A stretch of 60,056 nt of DNA. Source: Singulisphaera sp. GP187. Its GTDB lineage: Bacteria; Planctomycetota; Phycisphaerae; Phycisphaerales; SM1A02. The notes beneath the pieces were generated by a model. The model did not search any database, had not been told where the DNA came from, and saw nothing but the letters and a program-made list of their open reading frames with translations. The stretch lies in assembly GCA_945868805.1 (NCBI GenBank), contig CAMBMO010000014.1:1-60056 (forward strand), written 5' to 3'. This document shows positions 16,045 to 24,527 of this stretch, piece by piece; within the stretch, counting starts at the first letter, position 1, and every line of letters begins with the position of its first letter. Made by a program: the position numbers and the translations under genes.

Positions 16045-17997
16045 ATGGTGACCCACTCCACTTCCGCAGTCACGACTTTGTTTGAAAAGTTTGGTCCCGG
16101 CGAACGCACTCGCATCGAGCGTGGCGTCGCCCAAGTTGCGGCGCGTTGGAAATTAGTTGATGGGACGCACGAGGAGTTCGAGAAGTTCTGCCAAGAGCGC
16201 TTTGTCGCGACTGGTCCAGATCTCGTTCGACTCCTCGCACGCATCGAAGGAGCCCTCGAGCAGATCAATGGGCACTTGTATGAAATGCACCGGACACTGC
16301 GCAGACATAGTGATCTAGCGGGTGACGATTTCCCGGGTATAGATGACATGCTGGCGACATTTGATCCCGCACCTGACTTGTCGGAGCAGTTCTACCGACA
16401 GAAGTTGGCATTCGTCGCGCTCCTCAACTTCGAGAGAGCCACACTCGACTCGATGCTGAAGGAAGGCGCCGGATGGGATGTCGACCGATGGGCAGAGGTC
16501 CGGGTGGCGCAAGCGTTTGGCGCACGCATTCCGAAAGAGCTTGCCGAGAAGGCTCGCAAGGTCGGACACGAGTGCCAACAGTGGGTCTCGCATTTTCATA
16601 TTCCCGTTGGAACTCTCGTCGATTCGACTGGGAAACGATGGTTCTCCACCGATCGCGCCCTGCTGACGCATTGGCTGGTGCGGGAAGAAATCAAGGCGCA
16701 ATACAACGATCCTGCGGGACTCCCGCGGCAACGAGCGCTGGCGTCCGTCATGGCACGAGCGATCGATGGCGGTGTGCCGAATGCAATCATGAATCGATCG
16801 GCGAGTGAAAACTGGGATCCCCAGCACAACACCATCGGCGGGATCGCGATCCAACCCGACGAGACAATGGGGTTGGCGCGTTACGAGCGGTGGATAGAGC
16901 AATTCAATCTTGCACGTGAATTCGATGCACACTACCCCGAGCATCCAACAGCCATCGCGCGCAAATTCGAACTCGCCCGTGAGATGTCCGAGCGGGATGT
17001 CGAGCGACTGCTGACCGACTTGCTCGATCATCCGATGCGCAAGGACCTCGCGGTGTACTTGCGCAAGCGTCTCGGTCGCGATCTTGAGCCCTTCGACATC
17101 TACTTCGACGATATTGCAGAAGCGCGACCGGCGAGCGAACTTGATACGGCGGTTGCGACGAAATTCCCAGACGAGAAAGCATTTCAAGCGGCACTCCCGC
17201 AGGTCCTCCGTGGACTTGGGTATTCGGCGGAAGATTCGGATTTCCTTGGATCGCGCATCAAGGTGGAGATCGCCCGAGGGTCCGGTCACGCGATGCGACC
17301 GCTCCTTACGGAGTACGGCGCATGGCTACGAACGAGTCGGCTGAAAGATCAACTCGGCTGGGATGGGTTTGATACCGCGATGCACGAACTCGGTCACAAT
17401 CTCGAACAACTCTGCTCGACTTATTTCGCGCCACGACCTGCACTGCGCAACGTTCCCAACACCGCCTGCACCGAAGCATTCGCCTTCCTGTACCAGTCGC
17501 TCGGCAAGCGCGTGCTTGGAATCGAAGCGACGGACGGCGCGGAGCGAGCCTTTGCCATTGATAGTGTTCAGACGATGCTTGCGGCGTGCCAGATCGCGGG
17601 CCCAAGCCTCCTCGAACTGCACGTTTGGCGCTGGCTCTATGCGAATCCAACCGCGACTGCGGTGGCGCTACGCACAGAAGTTCTTGCCATCGCAGATCGG
17701 CTCTGGAAGCGCTTCTATCAGCGAGATTTCGGGGCAGATTCGTATCGATTGCTCGCGGCGTATCAGCACATGATCGGGCATCCGCTCTACCTCGCGGATT
17801 ACACGCTCGGGCATGTGATGAGCCATCAGATTCGTTCATTCATGCGCACGAAGGACATCGCGACAGAAACCCGCCGCATCACATCGATCGGTCGCTTGAC
17901 GCCGGAGTTATGGATGAAACGCGCGGTTGGCGAAGGCATCTCTGTCGCACCGCTTGCAACCGAAAGCGCGCGGGCGCTCGAGGTGCTTACGCGCTGA
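16045..17997 (+). CDS. M3-like zinc oligopeptidase (gluzincin)
   Basis: A 650-residue soluble metallopeptidase. The zinc motif HELGH is at about residues 449-453, and a glutamate in N-T-A-C-T-E-A-F about 25 residues later would be the third ligand, as in the M3/oligoendopeptidase F clan. The helical N-terminal half and the late GHPLYLADYTLGHV block also fit. Overall similarity to characterised oligoendopeptidase F seems low, so the substrate range is unknown. No signal peptide. It starts 65 nt from the divergent BamE-like gene behind a weaker CACAAT hexamer. Its last 11 bases overlap the 3' end of iscA on the other strand. Confidence 0.82.
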   Translation: MVTHSTSAVTTLFEKFGPGERTRIERGVAQVAARWKLVDGTHEEFEKFCQERFVATGPDLVRLLARIEGALEQINGHLYEMHRTLRRHSDLAGDDFPGIDDMLATFDPAPDLSEQFYRQKLAFVALLNFERATLDSMLKEGAGWDVDRWAEVRVAQAFGARIPKELAEKARKVGHECQQWVSHFHIPVGTLVDSTGKRWFSTDRALLTHWLVREEIKAQYNDPAGLPRQRALASVMARAIDGGVPNAIMNRSASENWDPQHNTIGGIAIQPDETMGLARYERWIEQFNLAREFDAHYPEHPTAIARKFELAREMSERDVERLLTDLLDHPMRKDLAVYLRKRLGRDLEPFDIYFDDIAEARPASELDTAVATKFPDEKAFQAALPQVLRGLGYSAEDSDFLGSRIKVEIARGSGHAMRPLLTEYGAWLRTSRLKDQLGWDGFDTAMHELGHNLEQLCSTYFAPRPALRNVPNTACTEAFAFLYQSLGKRVLGIEATDGAERAFAIDSVQTMLAACQIAGPSLLELHVWRWLYANPTATAVALRTEVLAIADRLWKRFYQRDFGADSYRLLAAYQHMIGHPLYLADYTLGHVMSHQIRSFMRTKDIATETRRITSIGRLTPELWMKRAVGEGISVAPLATESARALEVLTR

Positions 17998-18400: not shown

Positions 18401-18410
18401 CAAAGACTCC

Positions 18411-18590
18411 TGGCTGATATTTAATAAGTGGCTGATATTTAATAAGTGGCTGATTTTTAATAAGTGGCTGATATTTAATAAGTGGCTGATTTTTAATAAG
18501 TGGCTGATTTTTAAAATAAGTGGCTGATATTTAAAATAAGTGGCTGATTTTTAATAAGTGGCTGATTTTTAATAAGTGGCTGATTTTTAA
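18411..18590 (-). repeat. 18-bp tandem repeat array between iscU and iscA
   Basis: Ten units in direct tandem, plus-strand consensus TGGCTGATTTTTAATAAG. Eight are 18 bp; units at 18501 and 18521 are 20 bp (AA inserted). The tenth, at 18577, is partial and contains the iscU stop codon. The base after TGGCTGAT alternates between A and T among copies (A at 18411, 18429, 18465, 18521). The array is AT-rich, fills the whole iscU-iscA gap and ends at the iscA Shine-Dalgarno sequence, so it lies inside the presumed operon mRNA. There are no spacers, so it is a minisatellite and not a CRISPR. Confidence 0.95.
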
Positions 18591-19035: not shown

Positions 19036-20277
19036 CTAATGACTTTGCCAGACGATTTTCGACAGATCGATTCCCTCTTTGTGAAGGTCGTAAAGCGGAC
19101 TCAGGCGCCTTAAGTGATTCACGGCGGTCTCGATCATCTCGATCGCCGCGTCGACTTCGGCATCGGTCGTCCACCGCCCCAGAGACAACCGGAGCGACGA
19201 GTGCGCGAGATCGTCACCGACCCCGAGGCTCTTCAACACATACGAAGGTTCGAGACTCGCGCTCGTACACGCCGATCCGGAAGAACAGGCAATCTCGCGA
19301 ACGCCCATCATGAGACTCTCACCTTCCACAAATCCGAAAGAGATATTCGTGATGTTCGGAACGCGCTTCGTGGCGTGCCCGTTGACGACGGTCACTTCGA
19401 TCCGCTTCACCAATTCGGACTCCAGTCGAGATCGCATCGCAAGAAGTCGAACCCCCTCGGCTTCCATGTCGTTGCGACAGAGCTCGCACGCCTTGCCGAA
19501 TCCGACGATTCCGCTGACATTCTGTGTTCCCGAGCGCATCCCGCGCTCCTGCCCTCCACCATCTTGCAGCGCCTCAAGCCGTACTCGTGGCTTGCGACGG
19601 CGAACATAGAGCGCACCAACCCCCTTCGGACCATAGATCTTGTGCCCACTCCATGAGAGCAAGTCAATGTTGTCCGTTTCGACATTCGTCGGCATCTTGC
19701 CGACCCACTGGGTTGCATCTGTGTGAAAGATGATTTCCTTCTCGTGGCAGAGTTTGCCAATCGCAGGCACCTCGTTAATCGTCCCAAGTTCATTATTGAC
19801 CCACATGATCGAGACCAAGATTGTGTCGGGTCGAAGTGCAGCCTTCACCATCTCTGCCGTGATCACGCCATCCATCGGTGGCTGAATGAATGTCGCGTCA
19901 AATCCCTCGCGCATCAATCGACGAACTGGATCGAGTACTGCCTTGTGTTCATGCGCTGCGGTCACGATGTGACCGCGACCAGACTGCCCGGAGGCGGCGC
20001 GGGCATAGATCTCTGCGGCTCCCTTGATCGCGAGGTTGTTGGACTCTGTCGATCCAGAAGTGAAAATGACTTCCTTGGACTGAGCGCCGATCAACTTGGC
20101 GGCTTGCTCGCGAGCGATCTCGATGCCATCTTCGGCTTCCCACCCAAACTGGTGATTGCGCGACCCTGCATTTCCGAATCTTTCGCTGAAATAGGGAAGC
20201 ATCGCTTCCACGACCTTGGGATCGCACCGAGTGGTCGCGGCGTGATCGAGGTAGATTGGGTTCTTGGATGAAATCAA
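19036..20277 (-). CDS. iscS: Cysteine desulfurase
   Basis: A 413-residue PLP enzyme that takes sulfur from cysteine for Fe-S clusters and thiolated molecules. The N-terminal IYLDHAATT, the PLP lysine in WSGHKIYGPKGVGALY, and the active cysteine in SSGSACTSASLEPS (the mobile loop of group I, IscS/NifS type) are present. No ATG fits the conserved N-terminus. A TTG at 20277, with GAAGGAA just upstream, gives MISSKNPIYLDH and is preferred. It heads iscS-iscU-iscA and is divergent from panC across 79 nt that hold a Fur-like palindrome. Confidence 0.93.
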   Translation of the reverse strand: MISSKNPIYLDHAATTRCDPKVVEAMLPYFSERFGNAGSRNHQFGWEAEDGIEIAREQAAKLIGAQSKEVIFTSGSTESNNLAIKGAAEIYARAASGQSGRGHIVTAAHEHKAVLDPVRRLMREGFDATFIQPPMDGVITAEMVKAALRPDTILVSIMWVNNELGTINEVPAIGKLCHEKEIIFHTDATQWVGKMPTNVETDNIDLLSWSGHKIYGPKGVGALYVRRRKPRVRLEALQDGGGQERGMRSGTQNVSGIVGFGKACELCRNDMEAEGVRLLAMRSRLESELVKRIEVTVVNGHATKRVPNITNISFGFVEGESLMMGVREIACSSGSACTSASLEPSYVLKSLGVGDDLAHSSLRLSLGRWTTDAEVDAAIEMIETAVNHLRRLSPLYDLHKEGIDLSKIVWQSH

Positions 20278-20295
20278 GGATTTCCTTCGGGTAAG

Positions 20296-20312
20296 TTGAG
20301 ACTGGTTCTCAA
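20296..20312. promoter_or_regulatory. Fur-like palindrome upstream of the isc operon
   Basis: TTGAGACTGGTTCTCAA is a perfect 6-bp inverted repeat (TTGAGA/TCTCAA) with a 5-bp spacer, 19-35 nt before the iscS start. The arms resemble Fur-type boxes of the TGAGAA-n-TTCTCA kind. Iron control of Fe-S assembly would make sense, but no regulator is in the window, and panC on the other side could also be affected. Confidence 0.45.
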
Positions 20313-20356
20313 TTACGCATTGTAGTAGGTCCACCAAACTCATCAAGCCAAGAGAC

Positions 20357-21193
20357 ATGAAAATAATCGAATCATCACGCGAACTCGCCCCATTTCAAGG
20401 AGGTTCCCTGGTCGCGACTATGGGAGCTCTGCATGAAGGGCACGCATCGCTTATCCGGACCGCGAAACTGGCCAAGCATCCCGTGTTGGTGACGATTTTT
20501 GTCAATCCAACCCAATTCGGACCCTCGGAGGACTTCTCACGGTACCCGCGCACGCTTGAGGTGGATCTTGGACTGGCAGAAACGGCTGGTGCCGATGCGG
20601 TCTTCGTGCCTTCGATAGGCGACATCTATCCGGACGGGATCGAGATTGCGAAGCGACAGGCGACTGAACTCGCGCTCCCGCCCACCGCGAATCAACCCAA
20701 ACTCGAAGATGCGGGCCGACCGACCCATTTCGGCGGAGTCTGCCAAGTTGTAGCGAGGCTCTTCGATCTATGCCGTCCATCGCTCGCGCACTTCGGCGAG
20801 AAGGACTTCCAGCAACTCCGAGTCATCACGCAACTGGTCGAACTGAATTCGGATCGATGGCAAGCGCTCAAGATCGTTCCTTGTAAGACGGTGCGGGAAC
20901 CCGATGGACTCGCAATGAGCAGTCGCAACCGCTACCTCAACGTGACTCAAAGACAAGATGCGCTCGGCCTCTGGCGTGCCTTGCAAGTCGCGAGAGAATG
21001 CGAAAACCTATCGAACGCGGAGGTGATGATGCGCGCCACGCTCGAACAACACGGGCTGGACCCCGAGTACGCAGTTGTTCGCAGTTCAAAGACACTTTGC
21101 GCCATCGACGCAACGACGAACTCTGCTCGCATACTCGTCGCTGCAAAGCTCGGCGAGATTCGGTTGATCGACAACGCTCCCTTTGGGAATTGA
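20357..21193 (+). CDS. panC: Pantothenate synthetase
   Basis: The 278-residue enzyme joining pantoate and beta-alanine with ATP, the last step to vitamin B5. The nucleotidyltransferase HIGH-type motif MGALHEGH is at residues 22-29, FVNPTQFGPSEDFSRYPR follows near 50, and the LAHFGEKDFQQL and LAMSSRNRYL (KMSKS-equivalent) blocks are intact. The start is in a weak context (AAGAGAC upstream, no good hexamer at short distance). It is divergent from iscS and 24 nt upstream of the thioredoxin-like gene, which has its own hexamer. Confidence 0.95.
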   Translation: MKIIESSRELAPFQGGSLVATMGALHEGHASLIRTAKLAKHPVLVTIFVNPTQFGPSEDFSRYPRTLEVDLGLAETAGADAVFVPSIGDIYPDGIEIAKRQATELALPPTANQPKLEDAGRPTHFGGVCQVVARLFDLCRPSLAHFGEKDFQQLRVITQLVELNSDRWQALKIVPCKTVREPDGLAMSSRNRYLNVTQRQDALGLWRALQVARECENLSNAEVMMRATLEQHGLDPEYAVVRSSKTLCAIDATTNSARILVAAKLGEIRLIDNAPFGN

Positions 21194-21217: not shown

Positions 21218-22579
21218 ATGCGAATCCTTCCCACGTTGGTTTTCCTGCTTGCGTTGGGATCTACTTGGTCGATCGCGGACGCGCAATTTGGTGGCGGTTT
21301 CTCGCCACGAAAGCCGGCGCCCGCGAGTCCACCCGAGACACCTCCGACCGCGCCGACGCAAGCTAAGCCAGCAGCTAAGCCAGCAGCTGAGCCAGCAGCT
21401 GAGCCAGAAGGCAACCCACCAACCCTTCCAGAGAACGCCCCTCAGTTTGACGAACCAACGTCAGCCAAACCTAGTTCGCCACCCGATTCTGGTGCCACGG
21501 TCAAAGTCGCGAAACCTGTCAAGTGCGACGCTCCACAGAAGGCGTGGATCGCGCGCCTCGATCCCGAGGACCGAGAAGCCATTGACGCCGGACTTGGATA
21601 CGCCCTGGCGGAATTGAGCCCAACACTGAAATGGGTCGGATCCACTTCGACTCAGGGAGCGCCCGACTTCAAAGGCAAAGTTGTCGTGATCCAGAGCATT
21701 GATGCTGGTTCGTCGACCCCAGCGATTCTCGATCGAATCGTCACGGGGCTCGGATCGGCGCACTCGGATGGCGATGTGGTCGTCATCGGCGTGCAGATTC
21801 CAAGCAAGCTGGATCTCGCGACCAAACGACTGGAAAAGACTTCAACCAAGGCGATAATTTGTATCGACACGGATGGCAAGTGGTGTGATGCCCTCGGCAT
21901 CTACAAGAAGCCCGTCAACCTGATCGTCGACCGGAATGGGGCAATTCGATTCGCTGGATTGACGGAGAAAGGGTCGGCCGCAGCGGCAAAGTCGCTCGTT
22001 GCAGAGCCGAAAGCTGAGATTCGCGTCGCTGCTCGCCCGGAGTCTGTGGCGAGCGCATCGGCACCCACCGTCAGCTTTCCGACCTTCACCGAACCCCTAA
22101 GTGGTTGCAAAGATTTCCGTGGGCGAATGAGCCCAGAGCTGATGGTCGATCAGTGGATCACGGTCACTCCCAACACCAAAGGGAAGGTCATCATCGTCGA
22201 CTTTTTCTTCACTGGTTGCGCCCCGTGCAGAGCGGCCATCCCTCACACGAATGAACTCGTAAAGGTGTACGGCGATTCGGTCGCCGTTGTCGGCGTCTCT
22301 TTCGAGAGTAAGTCGACATTCGACTCAGGCATGAAGAAACACAAGCTCAAGACGAGCGACTTTCACTACCCGCTCGGACTCGATACGACTCGGCGCACGA
22401 TCGGGGCGTTCGGCGTCGAGAGCTATCCGTCGATCGCGATTCTCTCGGCGGACGGAATCGTCCGCTGGCAGGGACACCCAAGCAACCTCAATCGAGCAGT
22501 ACTCGATCCAATTGTCGCAGCGAATGGGGCACTCGCGAAGAGCGCCGAGCAGTCGAAGAGTCGTAGCTGGGCGAAGTGA
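21218..22579 (+). CDS. Secreted TlpA-like protein with two thioredoxin-like domains
   Basis: A 453-residue exported protein. The signal peptide (residues 1-22, ending ADA) is followed by a Pro/Ala/Glu-rich linker containing a 12-bp DNA repeat. A first thioredoxin-like domain (about 105-260) lacks a CxxC, so it is probably not redox-active. A second (about 300-440) has the active motif FTGCAPC followed by RAAIPHTNEL, the SFESK strand and the cis-proline loop ESYPSIAI. The second domain should reduce or oxidise thiols in the periplasm, as TlpA/ResA proteins do in cytochrome c maturation or resistance roles. The partner is unknown. Two fused domains with one inactive are unusual but occur in planctomycetes. 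Confidence 0.85.
   Translation: MRILPTLVFLLALGSTWSIADAQFGGGFSPRKPAPASPPETPPTAPTQAKPAAKPAAEPAAEPEGNPPTLPENAPQFDEPTSAKPSSPPDSGATVKVAKPVKCDAPQKAWIARLDPEDREAIDAGLGYALAELSPTLKWVGSTSTQGAPDFKGKVVVIQSIDAGSSTPAILDRIVTGLGSAHSDGDVVVIGVQIPSKLDLATKRLEKTSTKAIICIDTDGKWCDALGIYKKPVNLIVDRNGAIRFAGLTEKGSAAAAKSLVAEPKAEIRVAARPESVASASAPTVSFPTFTEPLSGCKDFRGRMSPELMVDQWITVTPNTKGKVIIVDFFFTGCAPCRAAIPHTNELVKVYGDSVAVVGVSFESKSTFDSGMKKHKLKTSDFHYPLGLDTTRRTIGAFGVESYPSIAILSADGIVRWQGHPSNLNRAVLDPIVAANGALAKSAEQSKSRSWAK
21361..21408 (+). repeat. 12-bp tandem repeat in the linker of the TlpA-like gene
   Basis: Four near-identical units of the form agct(a/g)agccagc, encoding AKPA-AKPA-AEPA-AEPE. Copy number changes would lengthen the linker by four residues per unit without a frameshift. 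Confidence 0.9.
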
Positions 22580-23649: not shown

Positions 23650-24516
23650 TCATCGCTGCGCCGCGATGTAGACGATCCATCCTTCGCACGCTTCACCTGC
23701 ACGCGACGGCTTGAAAATGCTGTTTCCTTCGCCACTCTTGTGATCGGTTCCTTCCCAGTAGACGATCGGATTGCGAAAACCAGCCTCAACAAGCACTTCC
23801 TTTATCTCAGGAAGCGTCCAGAGTCGCCATTCATACGTGAACGCTCGTCGCATTTCGCTCCCGTCCGGGAAGCGAAAGTGAATGTGGTTCACGACTTCAT
23901 GGGTGATCGGATTGACCTTCGCCTGATCCCAAACATAGGTGAATCCATCGAGGGATCGCTCTTCCTCGCCGACGGACCAGGACCCGGATCCTCCGTACGC
24001 GTCGACGAAGATCATCCCCCCAGCCTTCACATGGGTGGCAGCATTGCTGAAATACTCCCGCAATTTTTCCCGAGAATGGAAAATGAAATAGCTGAAGTTG
24101 AGCGCGACGAGAACATCAACACCGCTCGTTCGCACACAATTGACGTCGCCCTTCTTTAGCTCGATCCGATCGCGCTGATTCTCTGAGAGTGACGCAATTC
24201 GTTCCCGGCCTCGCCTGAGAACTTTCGGGTCGAGATCGACTCCGATCGCGGTGTTCGTCGGACGCCACTGCACCCAATCTCGAGCGAGAAGTCCTGTTCC
24301 GCAAAAGTCTTCCCGGAGCGACGTCGGGAGTCGGTTTCGTAGCTTTCGGAAGACACGGTCGATCATTGCGCAGTCGGAATCCGTGCCCTGAACGGCGAGC
24401 TCGTAGAGTTCGTGCCGATCCGAGTTCTTGGCACTTCTCCACGCCGGTTTTCGTGGACTTCGAGTTGATTGCTTCGCCATATGCTTCGCCATATGCTTCG
24501 CCATATGCTTCGCCAT
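23650..24516 (-). CDS. Class I SAM-dependent methyltransferase with repeated N-terminus
   Basis: A 288-residue methyltransferase of the Rossmann type. LREDFCGTGLLARDWV is the SAM motif I equivalent, AIGVDLDP the acidic motif II, and LVALNFSYFIFHSREKL lies near the catalytic face, as in methyltransferases often annotated as Methyltransf_25. The N-terminus is four tandem MAKH/MAKQ units made by a 12-bp repeat, so there are four in-frame ATGs (24516, 24504, 24492, 24480). I chose the first because TAGACT lies 11 nt upstream. The hexamer's TAG is the stop of the DUF1573 lipoprotein gene. The substrate is unknown. It is close to S-adenosylhomocysteinase, which would recycle its by-product. Confidence 0.82.
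   Translation of the reverse strand: MAKHMAKHMAKHMAKQSTRSPRKPAWRSAKNSDRHELYELAVQGTDSDCAMIDRVFRKLRNRLPTSLREDFCGTGLLARDWVQWRPTNTAIGVDLDPKVLRRGRERIASLSENQRDRIELKKGDVNCVRTSGVDVLVALNFSYFIFHSREKLREYFSNAATHVKAGGMIFVDAYGGSGSWSVGEEERSLDGFTYVWDQAKVNPITHEVVNHIHFRFPDGSEMRRAFTYEWRLWTLPEIKEVLVEAGFRNPIVYWEGTDHKSGEGNSIFKPSRAGEACEGWIVYIAAQR
24469..24516 (-). repeat. 12-bp tandem repeat with four equivalent start codons
   Basis: Minus-strand ATGGCGAAGCAT repeated four times (the last unit ends in AA in place of AT). Each unit contains an in-frame ATG. Confidence 0.9.
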
Positions 24517-24527
24517 AGTGGGGGCGA

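Follow-up and report, generated by a model that had tools for sequence, protein, structure and literature searches.

An 18-bp tandem array fills the gap between iscU and an A-type iron–sulfur carrier gene in a planctomycete genome

In Singulisphaera sp. GP187, the gap between iscU and the gene of an A-type iron–sulfur (Fe-S) carrier is filled by ten tandem copies of an AT-rich unit. We consider it likely that this array is a recent and nearly neutral minisatellite, expanded by slippage in a genome that holds many unrelated small arrays. Its certain effect is to place 186 nt of A/U-rich, weakly structured and start-less RNA between two genes that are separated by only 9 to 86 nt in congeners. 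The window is the whole stretch of 60,056 nt that was analyzed (contig CAMBMO010000014.1, positions 1 to 60,056), and the features under study are listed in Table 1.

Table 1. Features of the iscU–carrier region, with coordinates in the window.
Feature	Position	Strand	Remarks
iscS-type cysteine desulfurase	19036..20358	−	NF010611; upstream of iscU
iscU, 142 aa	18587..19015	−	TIGR01999, 200.5 against a cut-off of 192.4
AGTTCT, final two iscU codons	18590..18595	−	identical to the unit's ACTTAT at 4/6 positions
Tandem array, 10 copies of TAAA(A/T)ATCAGCCACTTAT	18411..18590	−	Tandem Repeats Finder; copies proper 18589–18412
AGGAGTCTTTG, Shine-Dalgarno-like AGGAG and spacer	18401..18411	−	abuts the last array copy
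A-type Fe-S carrier (IscA/ErpA/SufA family), 137 aa	17987..18400	−	TIGR00049; downstream of the array

Anatomy of the array

On the mRNA strand, seven copies measure 18 nt, two measure 20 nt (copies 3 and 4) and the tenth is cut to 12 nt, in agreement with the unit of 18 (or 20) bp given in the initial annotation; the spacings from copy to copy are 18, 18, 20, 20, 18, 18, 18, 18 and 18. Tandem Repeats Finder (TRF) described the array with a period of 18, 9.8 copies, 92% matches and a score of 296, and a 94-bp reading of it scored 312. Being arranged head to tail, with a unit in the range of about 10–100 bp and a score well above chance, it belongs to the bacterial minisatellites or tandem repeat loci. 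The TAA that opens copy 1 (18589–18587) is the stop codon of iscU, and copy 10 ends at TAAATATCAGCC, directly followed by AGGAGTCTTTG and the ATG of the carrier gene. The description of ten AT-rich copies that occupy exactly the space between the iscU stop and the next ribosome-binding site was thereby confirmed.

From the start of the iscU TAA to the start of the carrier ATG, 189 nt were counted, which keeps both genes in the same frame and leaves the gap of 186 nt. In the iscU frame, three in-frame TAA codons (copies 1–3) follow each other before the 20-nt copies shift the register. ATG, GTG and TTG are absent from the array in all three mRNA-strand frames, and the first of them is a TTG adjoining the carrier ATG. 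Sequence differences among the copies are restricted to one A/T site and one TT insertion, the latter common to two neighboring copies. Along the array the A/T site reads A A A T A A T A T T, and not in the regular alternation that had been noted before. Since the copies differ at these two features only, their sequences indicate an array that is young or homogenized. The final two codons of iscU may perhaps preserve a remnant of the copy that seeded it.

Flanking genes

The carrier gene had been named iscA. Its product reached 105.2 bits with the A-type carrier model TIGR00049 (cut-off 58.8), which supports the family, but it stayed below the equivalog cut-offs for IscA (81.1/150.6), SufA (82.2/136.2) and ErpA (99.6/117), and the more specific name did not hold. 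Several models of approximately 105–110 positions matched the protein in two stretches, and for this reason the 137-aa carrier may hold an insertion. The cysteine desulfurase passed NF010611 (589.4 against a cut-off of 548) and missed the IscS model TIGR02006 (573.7 against 643.2); its start is uncertain, at 20358 or, according to a separate gene caller, at 20277.

An open reading frame of 650 aa on the plus strand (16045–17997) converges on the carrier gene with an 11-bp overlap at the carrier 3′ end, and searches of Pfam and NCBIfam at E 0.001 matched nothing in it. It contains HELGHN, which we take to resemble a zinc-peptidase motif. Two further short arrays were noted: a 12-bp unit in 3.9 copies (21361–21407) within an AhpC/TSA-family coding sequence, where it encodes an A/P/K/E-rich stretch, and a 12-bp unit repeated perfectly four times (24470–24517), which falls in a minus-strand open stretch of 362 codons.

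Occurrence in the genome and its relatives

When the own genome was searched with the unit at up to three mismatches, ten matches were obtained, and all ten lie inside the array. This single location sets it apart from interspersed units of the MIRU type, which occupy many genome sites. A 27-nt pattern, one and a half times the length of the unit, was found in none of the 18 other congeners, again at up to three mismatches, and a DNA search with the entire array matched its own genome and none of the 180 other family genomes. An exact 35-nt pattern gave no match in a collection of 84,980 species, from which the own genome may have been left out. Identical arrays scattered over unrelated sites with no link to iscA, which the initial annotation had named as a refuting finding, were thus encountered neither in the own genome nor in the 18 congeners and 180 family genomes. 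The own genome nevertheless has many arrays of this kind that are unrelated to it.

IscU was matched in 45 of 61 genomes, and the best 30 of those loci were compared. Among the congeners, 15 of 18 gave a locus (G004, G010 and G017 had no IscU match and were not counted). The comparison across related genomes that had been recommended showed that the order of iscU followed by the carrier gene is kept in 15/15 loci, and the array is absent from all of them, with no tandem repeat at a TRF score of at least 40 and gaps of 9–86 nt (median 11). In five of the 15 (L003–L006 and L009), AGGAG immediately follows the stop codon of iscU, as TAA-aggagtttgaa-ATG, an arrangement that, by its sequence, resembles the present layout minus the array.

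The 14 further loci of the family and order ranged from a 20-nt overlap to a gap of 167 nt. In a set of 75 named loci the gaps spanned 1 to 1183 nt, and since seven of these 75 reach at least 186 nt, a long iscU–carrier gap as such is not unusual. This set is what remains of the best 80 among at least 589 relatives after removal of four loci with no A-type hit in the stretch (L063, L065, L069 and L127) and one with the A-type hit on the other strand (L070); within those 80, the closest named relatives are metagenome assemblies of planctomycetes, several of them labeled Phycisphaerales. Gap starts were estimated by alignment and are overlong where the N-terminus remained unaligned, as in several order-level and distant loci. 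Weak tandem repeats of other units (TRF scores of 41–56) were present in six of the 104 comparison gaps (L021, L050, L054, L058, L104 and L117), which are partly non-independent, as L054 equals L021 and L051 equals L008 in gap sequence.

Tandem arrays across the genome and genus

The own genome is rich in arrays of this type. A sample of 460 kb contained 54 tandem arrays at a score of at least 50, compared with three after one dinucleotide shuffle, in which the best array scored 64. About 21–22 of the 54 are mostly intergenic, against about 8 predicted from the share of bases (7.9–8.1), and a fresh 400 kb of the own genome yielded 32 arrays, eight of them intergenic against 3.8 predicted. In congener stretches, the counts were 7 in 66 kb (G008), 19 in 100 kb (G005), 3 in 99 kb (G014) and 6 in 100 kb (G011). 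As the density varies from 3 to 19 per 100 kb across these stretches, array richness is not a genus-wide trait.

By TRF score, the iscU array ranks second in 860 kb of the own genome, and with a GC of 0.29 it is the lowest among the arrays listed in the first own-genome sample; both its rank and its composition could mean more than chance. The top score in the 860 kb belongs to a 22-bp unit in 8.5 copies on contig 7 (L135:229-414), which begins 6 bp past a truncated, low-scoring gene call at the contig end. Among congeners, a perfect 18-bp array of a different unit (5.6 copies) was seen near a contig end of G008 (L151:19-119), and the largest array seen is a 126-bp unit in 11.9 copies in G005 (L158:3724-5217; TRF score 2177).

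Arrays that copy a stop codon occur at unrelated genes as well. In G005, a 23-bp unit in 6.7 copies repeats the TAG stop of the preceding gene (L202:19129-19281), and a 21-bp unit in three copies repeats the TGA stop of the upstream gene (L201:19422-19483). Within the genus, nothing closer to the iscU array than these two was seen. Overall, arrays cover 5 of 617 called stops in the own genome, 10 of 321 in G005, 0 of 62 in G014 and 1 of 79 in G011; G008 was left out of the stop and start counts, as gene calling yielded one gene in its 66 kb. Called starts are covered in 7 of 630 cases in the own genome, and three arrays cover a stop and a start together (L145, L155 and L199). In the fresh data, arrays lie on 1/273 stops and 4/274 starts in the own genome (400 kb), and on 5/248 stops and 1/248 starts in G005 (320 kb).

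Under a random placement model, which ignores the arrays' avoidance of coding sequence and relies on unreliable gene-caller starts, the pooled own-genome data gave 5 stops against 3.0 expected (19% of 300 placements reach 5) and 7 starts against 3.1 (4% of placements). The same model gave 10 stops against 3.0 expected for pooled G005 (0/300 placements) and 2 starts against 3.0 (84% of placements). The first samples had suggested stop-codon seeding as a general rule, but the fresh own-genome data speak against it and the fresh G005 data for it, and it is not claimed here. For the own genome, the stop position is not a general bias, since arrays lie on starts as often as on stops, with four starts to one stop in the fresh sample.

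RNA structure, regulatory signals and alternative explanations

An unlikely alternative to a nearly neutral minisatellite is that ribosomal protein S1 lands on the A/U-rich, unstructured array, or that an RNase cleaves it at a series of sites, by which translation or mRNA decay of the carrier would be uncoupled from iscU, with the copy number serving as a dial. Binding of S1 to A/T-rich regions upstream of the Shine-Dalgarno sequence is cited in the relevant part of PMC4679880, and the GC content of the array is 0.28 compared with 0.58 in the own-genome sample. The structure prediction proposed for the minus-strand transcript revealed little structure: with its flanks, this RNA was predicted to fold less stably than every one of 200 shuffles (z +3.39), while the plus strand reached a z of 0.15. 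For the rnc-fpg1 repeats of Mycobacterium tuberculosis, longer arrays are described in the cited portion of PMC2734929 as accompanied by higher fpg1 mRNA levels, with a modest effect.

However, the contrast shrinks without the flanks, where the native 180 nt folded at −3.2 and 200 full shuffles at −7.6 (sd 2.8), and the 0.0 kcal/mol predicted for ten ideal copies was likewise found for 30% of 300 ten-copy arrays of shuffled units. Lack of structure is therefore strong against plain shuffles with flanks and weak against shuffled-unit tandem arrays, and it was not retained as a signal. The predicted unpaired probability of the Shine-Dalgarno sequence was 0.40–0.41 at 2 to 10 copies and 0.53 at one copy, and that of the start codon was 0.10–0.20 at every copy number. 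For the 14 nt before the Shine-Dalgarno sequence, the predicted access was 0.65 with one copy and 0.85 with two, falling to 0.43–0.49 at more. According to these models, going from 2 to 10 copies makes almost no difference to how accessible the ribosome site is, and the array is found in 0/15 congener loci.

The initial annotation had suggested that the array could tune iscA relative to iscU. What stands of this is that arrays of this kind vary in copy number elsewhere and that the position could in principle alter downstream expression, but no sign of function was detected, as judged from the congener loci and their short gaps, the mRNA-strand promoter scan, Rfam, the weak structure and the flat predicted access. 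Rfam gave no match in the array, and only a tRNA reached the gathering score in the window; with no Rfam family and less structure than its shuffles, the array does not belong to the structured regulatory RNAs or riboswitches. We regard it as improbable that slippage, by altering the unstructured A/U-rich spacer, heritably and reversibly sets the amount of carrier per IscU, and the reading of the array as a regulatory device is unsupported.

There is little chance that the array is an assembly artefact, either in its presence or in its copy number. The genome is a draft of 47 contigs, probably a metagenome assembly, and an array of 178 nt can exceed one short read. However, no exact repeat inside it is longer than 53 nt, which puts it within reach of an assembly that uses longer words; individual copies can be told apart by the A/T and TT variants; and it is embedded in a 60-kb contig with the iscU–carrier order of all 15 congener loci.

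It is very improbable that a regulator binds the array repeatedly, as initially proposed, or that the carrier gene has an internal promoter there, for although near-identical sites follow each other every 18–20 bp and MIRUs between senX3 and regX3 are reported in the cited part of PMC4213456 to drive regX3 by themselves, a sigma-70 type scan detected no promoter-like site on the mRNA strand within the array (its sole site is on the other strand, and the whole region has 3 compared with 1.6 in shuffles), and the unit occurs at no other genome place, unlike a regulator's site set.

Proposed origin

We propose that approximately 18 bp, taking in the last part of iscU with its TAA stop and a short spacer, were duplicated in tandem in this lineage, and that slippage during replication, or unequal exchange, would then have expanded the duplicate to ten copies. 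Later duplications may have spread the A/T and TT variants. With a TAA in every copy and neither ATG, GTG nor TTG anywhere in the array, added copies do not alter IscU or create a usual start codon, so that selection would let the array stand. Since the gap length varies within the genus, the array is probably tolerated; its near-neutrality is argued from the absence of signs of function. Judging by the length of the gap, any hand-over of ribosomes from iscU to the carrier gene has probably been lost, with the carrier keeping an AGGAG of its own.

Comparison with known systems

Tandem repeats between co-directional genes or over an upstream stop are already in print for other bacteria, so that the general layout has precedents. 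For Fe-S operons in particular, of which the initial annotation knew none with this layout, a limited literature search, judged by titles and abstract beginnings, gave no published case.

VNTR3239 (ETR-F) between rnc and fpg1 of M. tuberculosis is, like the iscU array, a tandem array between co-directional genes, and the parts of PMC2734929 cited here link longer arrays to more fpg1 mRNA. In the available part of its table, the array is confined to the tuberculosis complex among mycobacteria, with gaps of 279–358 bp compared with 6–54 bp in other mycobacteria. Unlike the iscU array, it combines 37-, 26- and 18-bp units in complex order and begins 40 bp past the stop; strain variation and the mRNA link were measured there, while the iscU array is known from one genome of its species (PMC2734929, in part). 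The MIRU of senX3-regX3 likewise has tandem units between two same-strand genes, but these measure 77 and 53 bp in the cited part of PMC4213456 instead of 18 nt, and MIRUs are reported at 41 genome places in that of PMC2734929, compared with the one site of the iscU unit.

In another work, TAACTGA repeats were described in Beggiatoaceae, which are stop-bearing and precede the next gene, as in the iscU array; in 13 cases the stop of the upstream gene is overlapped by repeats, from one partial unit up to two complete ones (PMC4679880, sections cited). In contrast to the 18 nt, the one site and the retained AGGAG of the iscU array, the same sections report a 7-nt unit, 169 sets per genome and frequent lack of a Shine-Dalgarno sequence, and an 18-nt unit TAAA(A/T)ATCAGCCACTTAT is not a heptamer of the TAACTGA type. 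The tandem repeats of Borgs are, in the portion of PMC9879509 considered, A-rich, recent and of independent origins, and may begin in the end of an open reading frame. They are near-perfect and pervasive in archaeal extrachromosomal elements, whereas the iscU array has imperfect copies and lies in a bacterial genome (PMC9879509, same portion). For the planctomycete Rhodopirellula baltica, 29 satellites (4.06 per Mb) are given in the cited part of a survey that used a different program and definition (PMC6749651).

The iscU array is a clean example of minisatellite growth between Fe-S assembly genes without obvious harm. It would matter more if its copy number were variable in nature and shifted the ratio of the two Fe-S assembly proteins. 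Planctomycete genomes with many young tandem arrays could be of use in strain typing and in the study of how such arrays begin.
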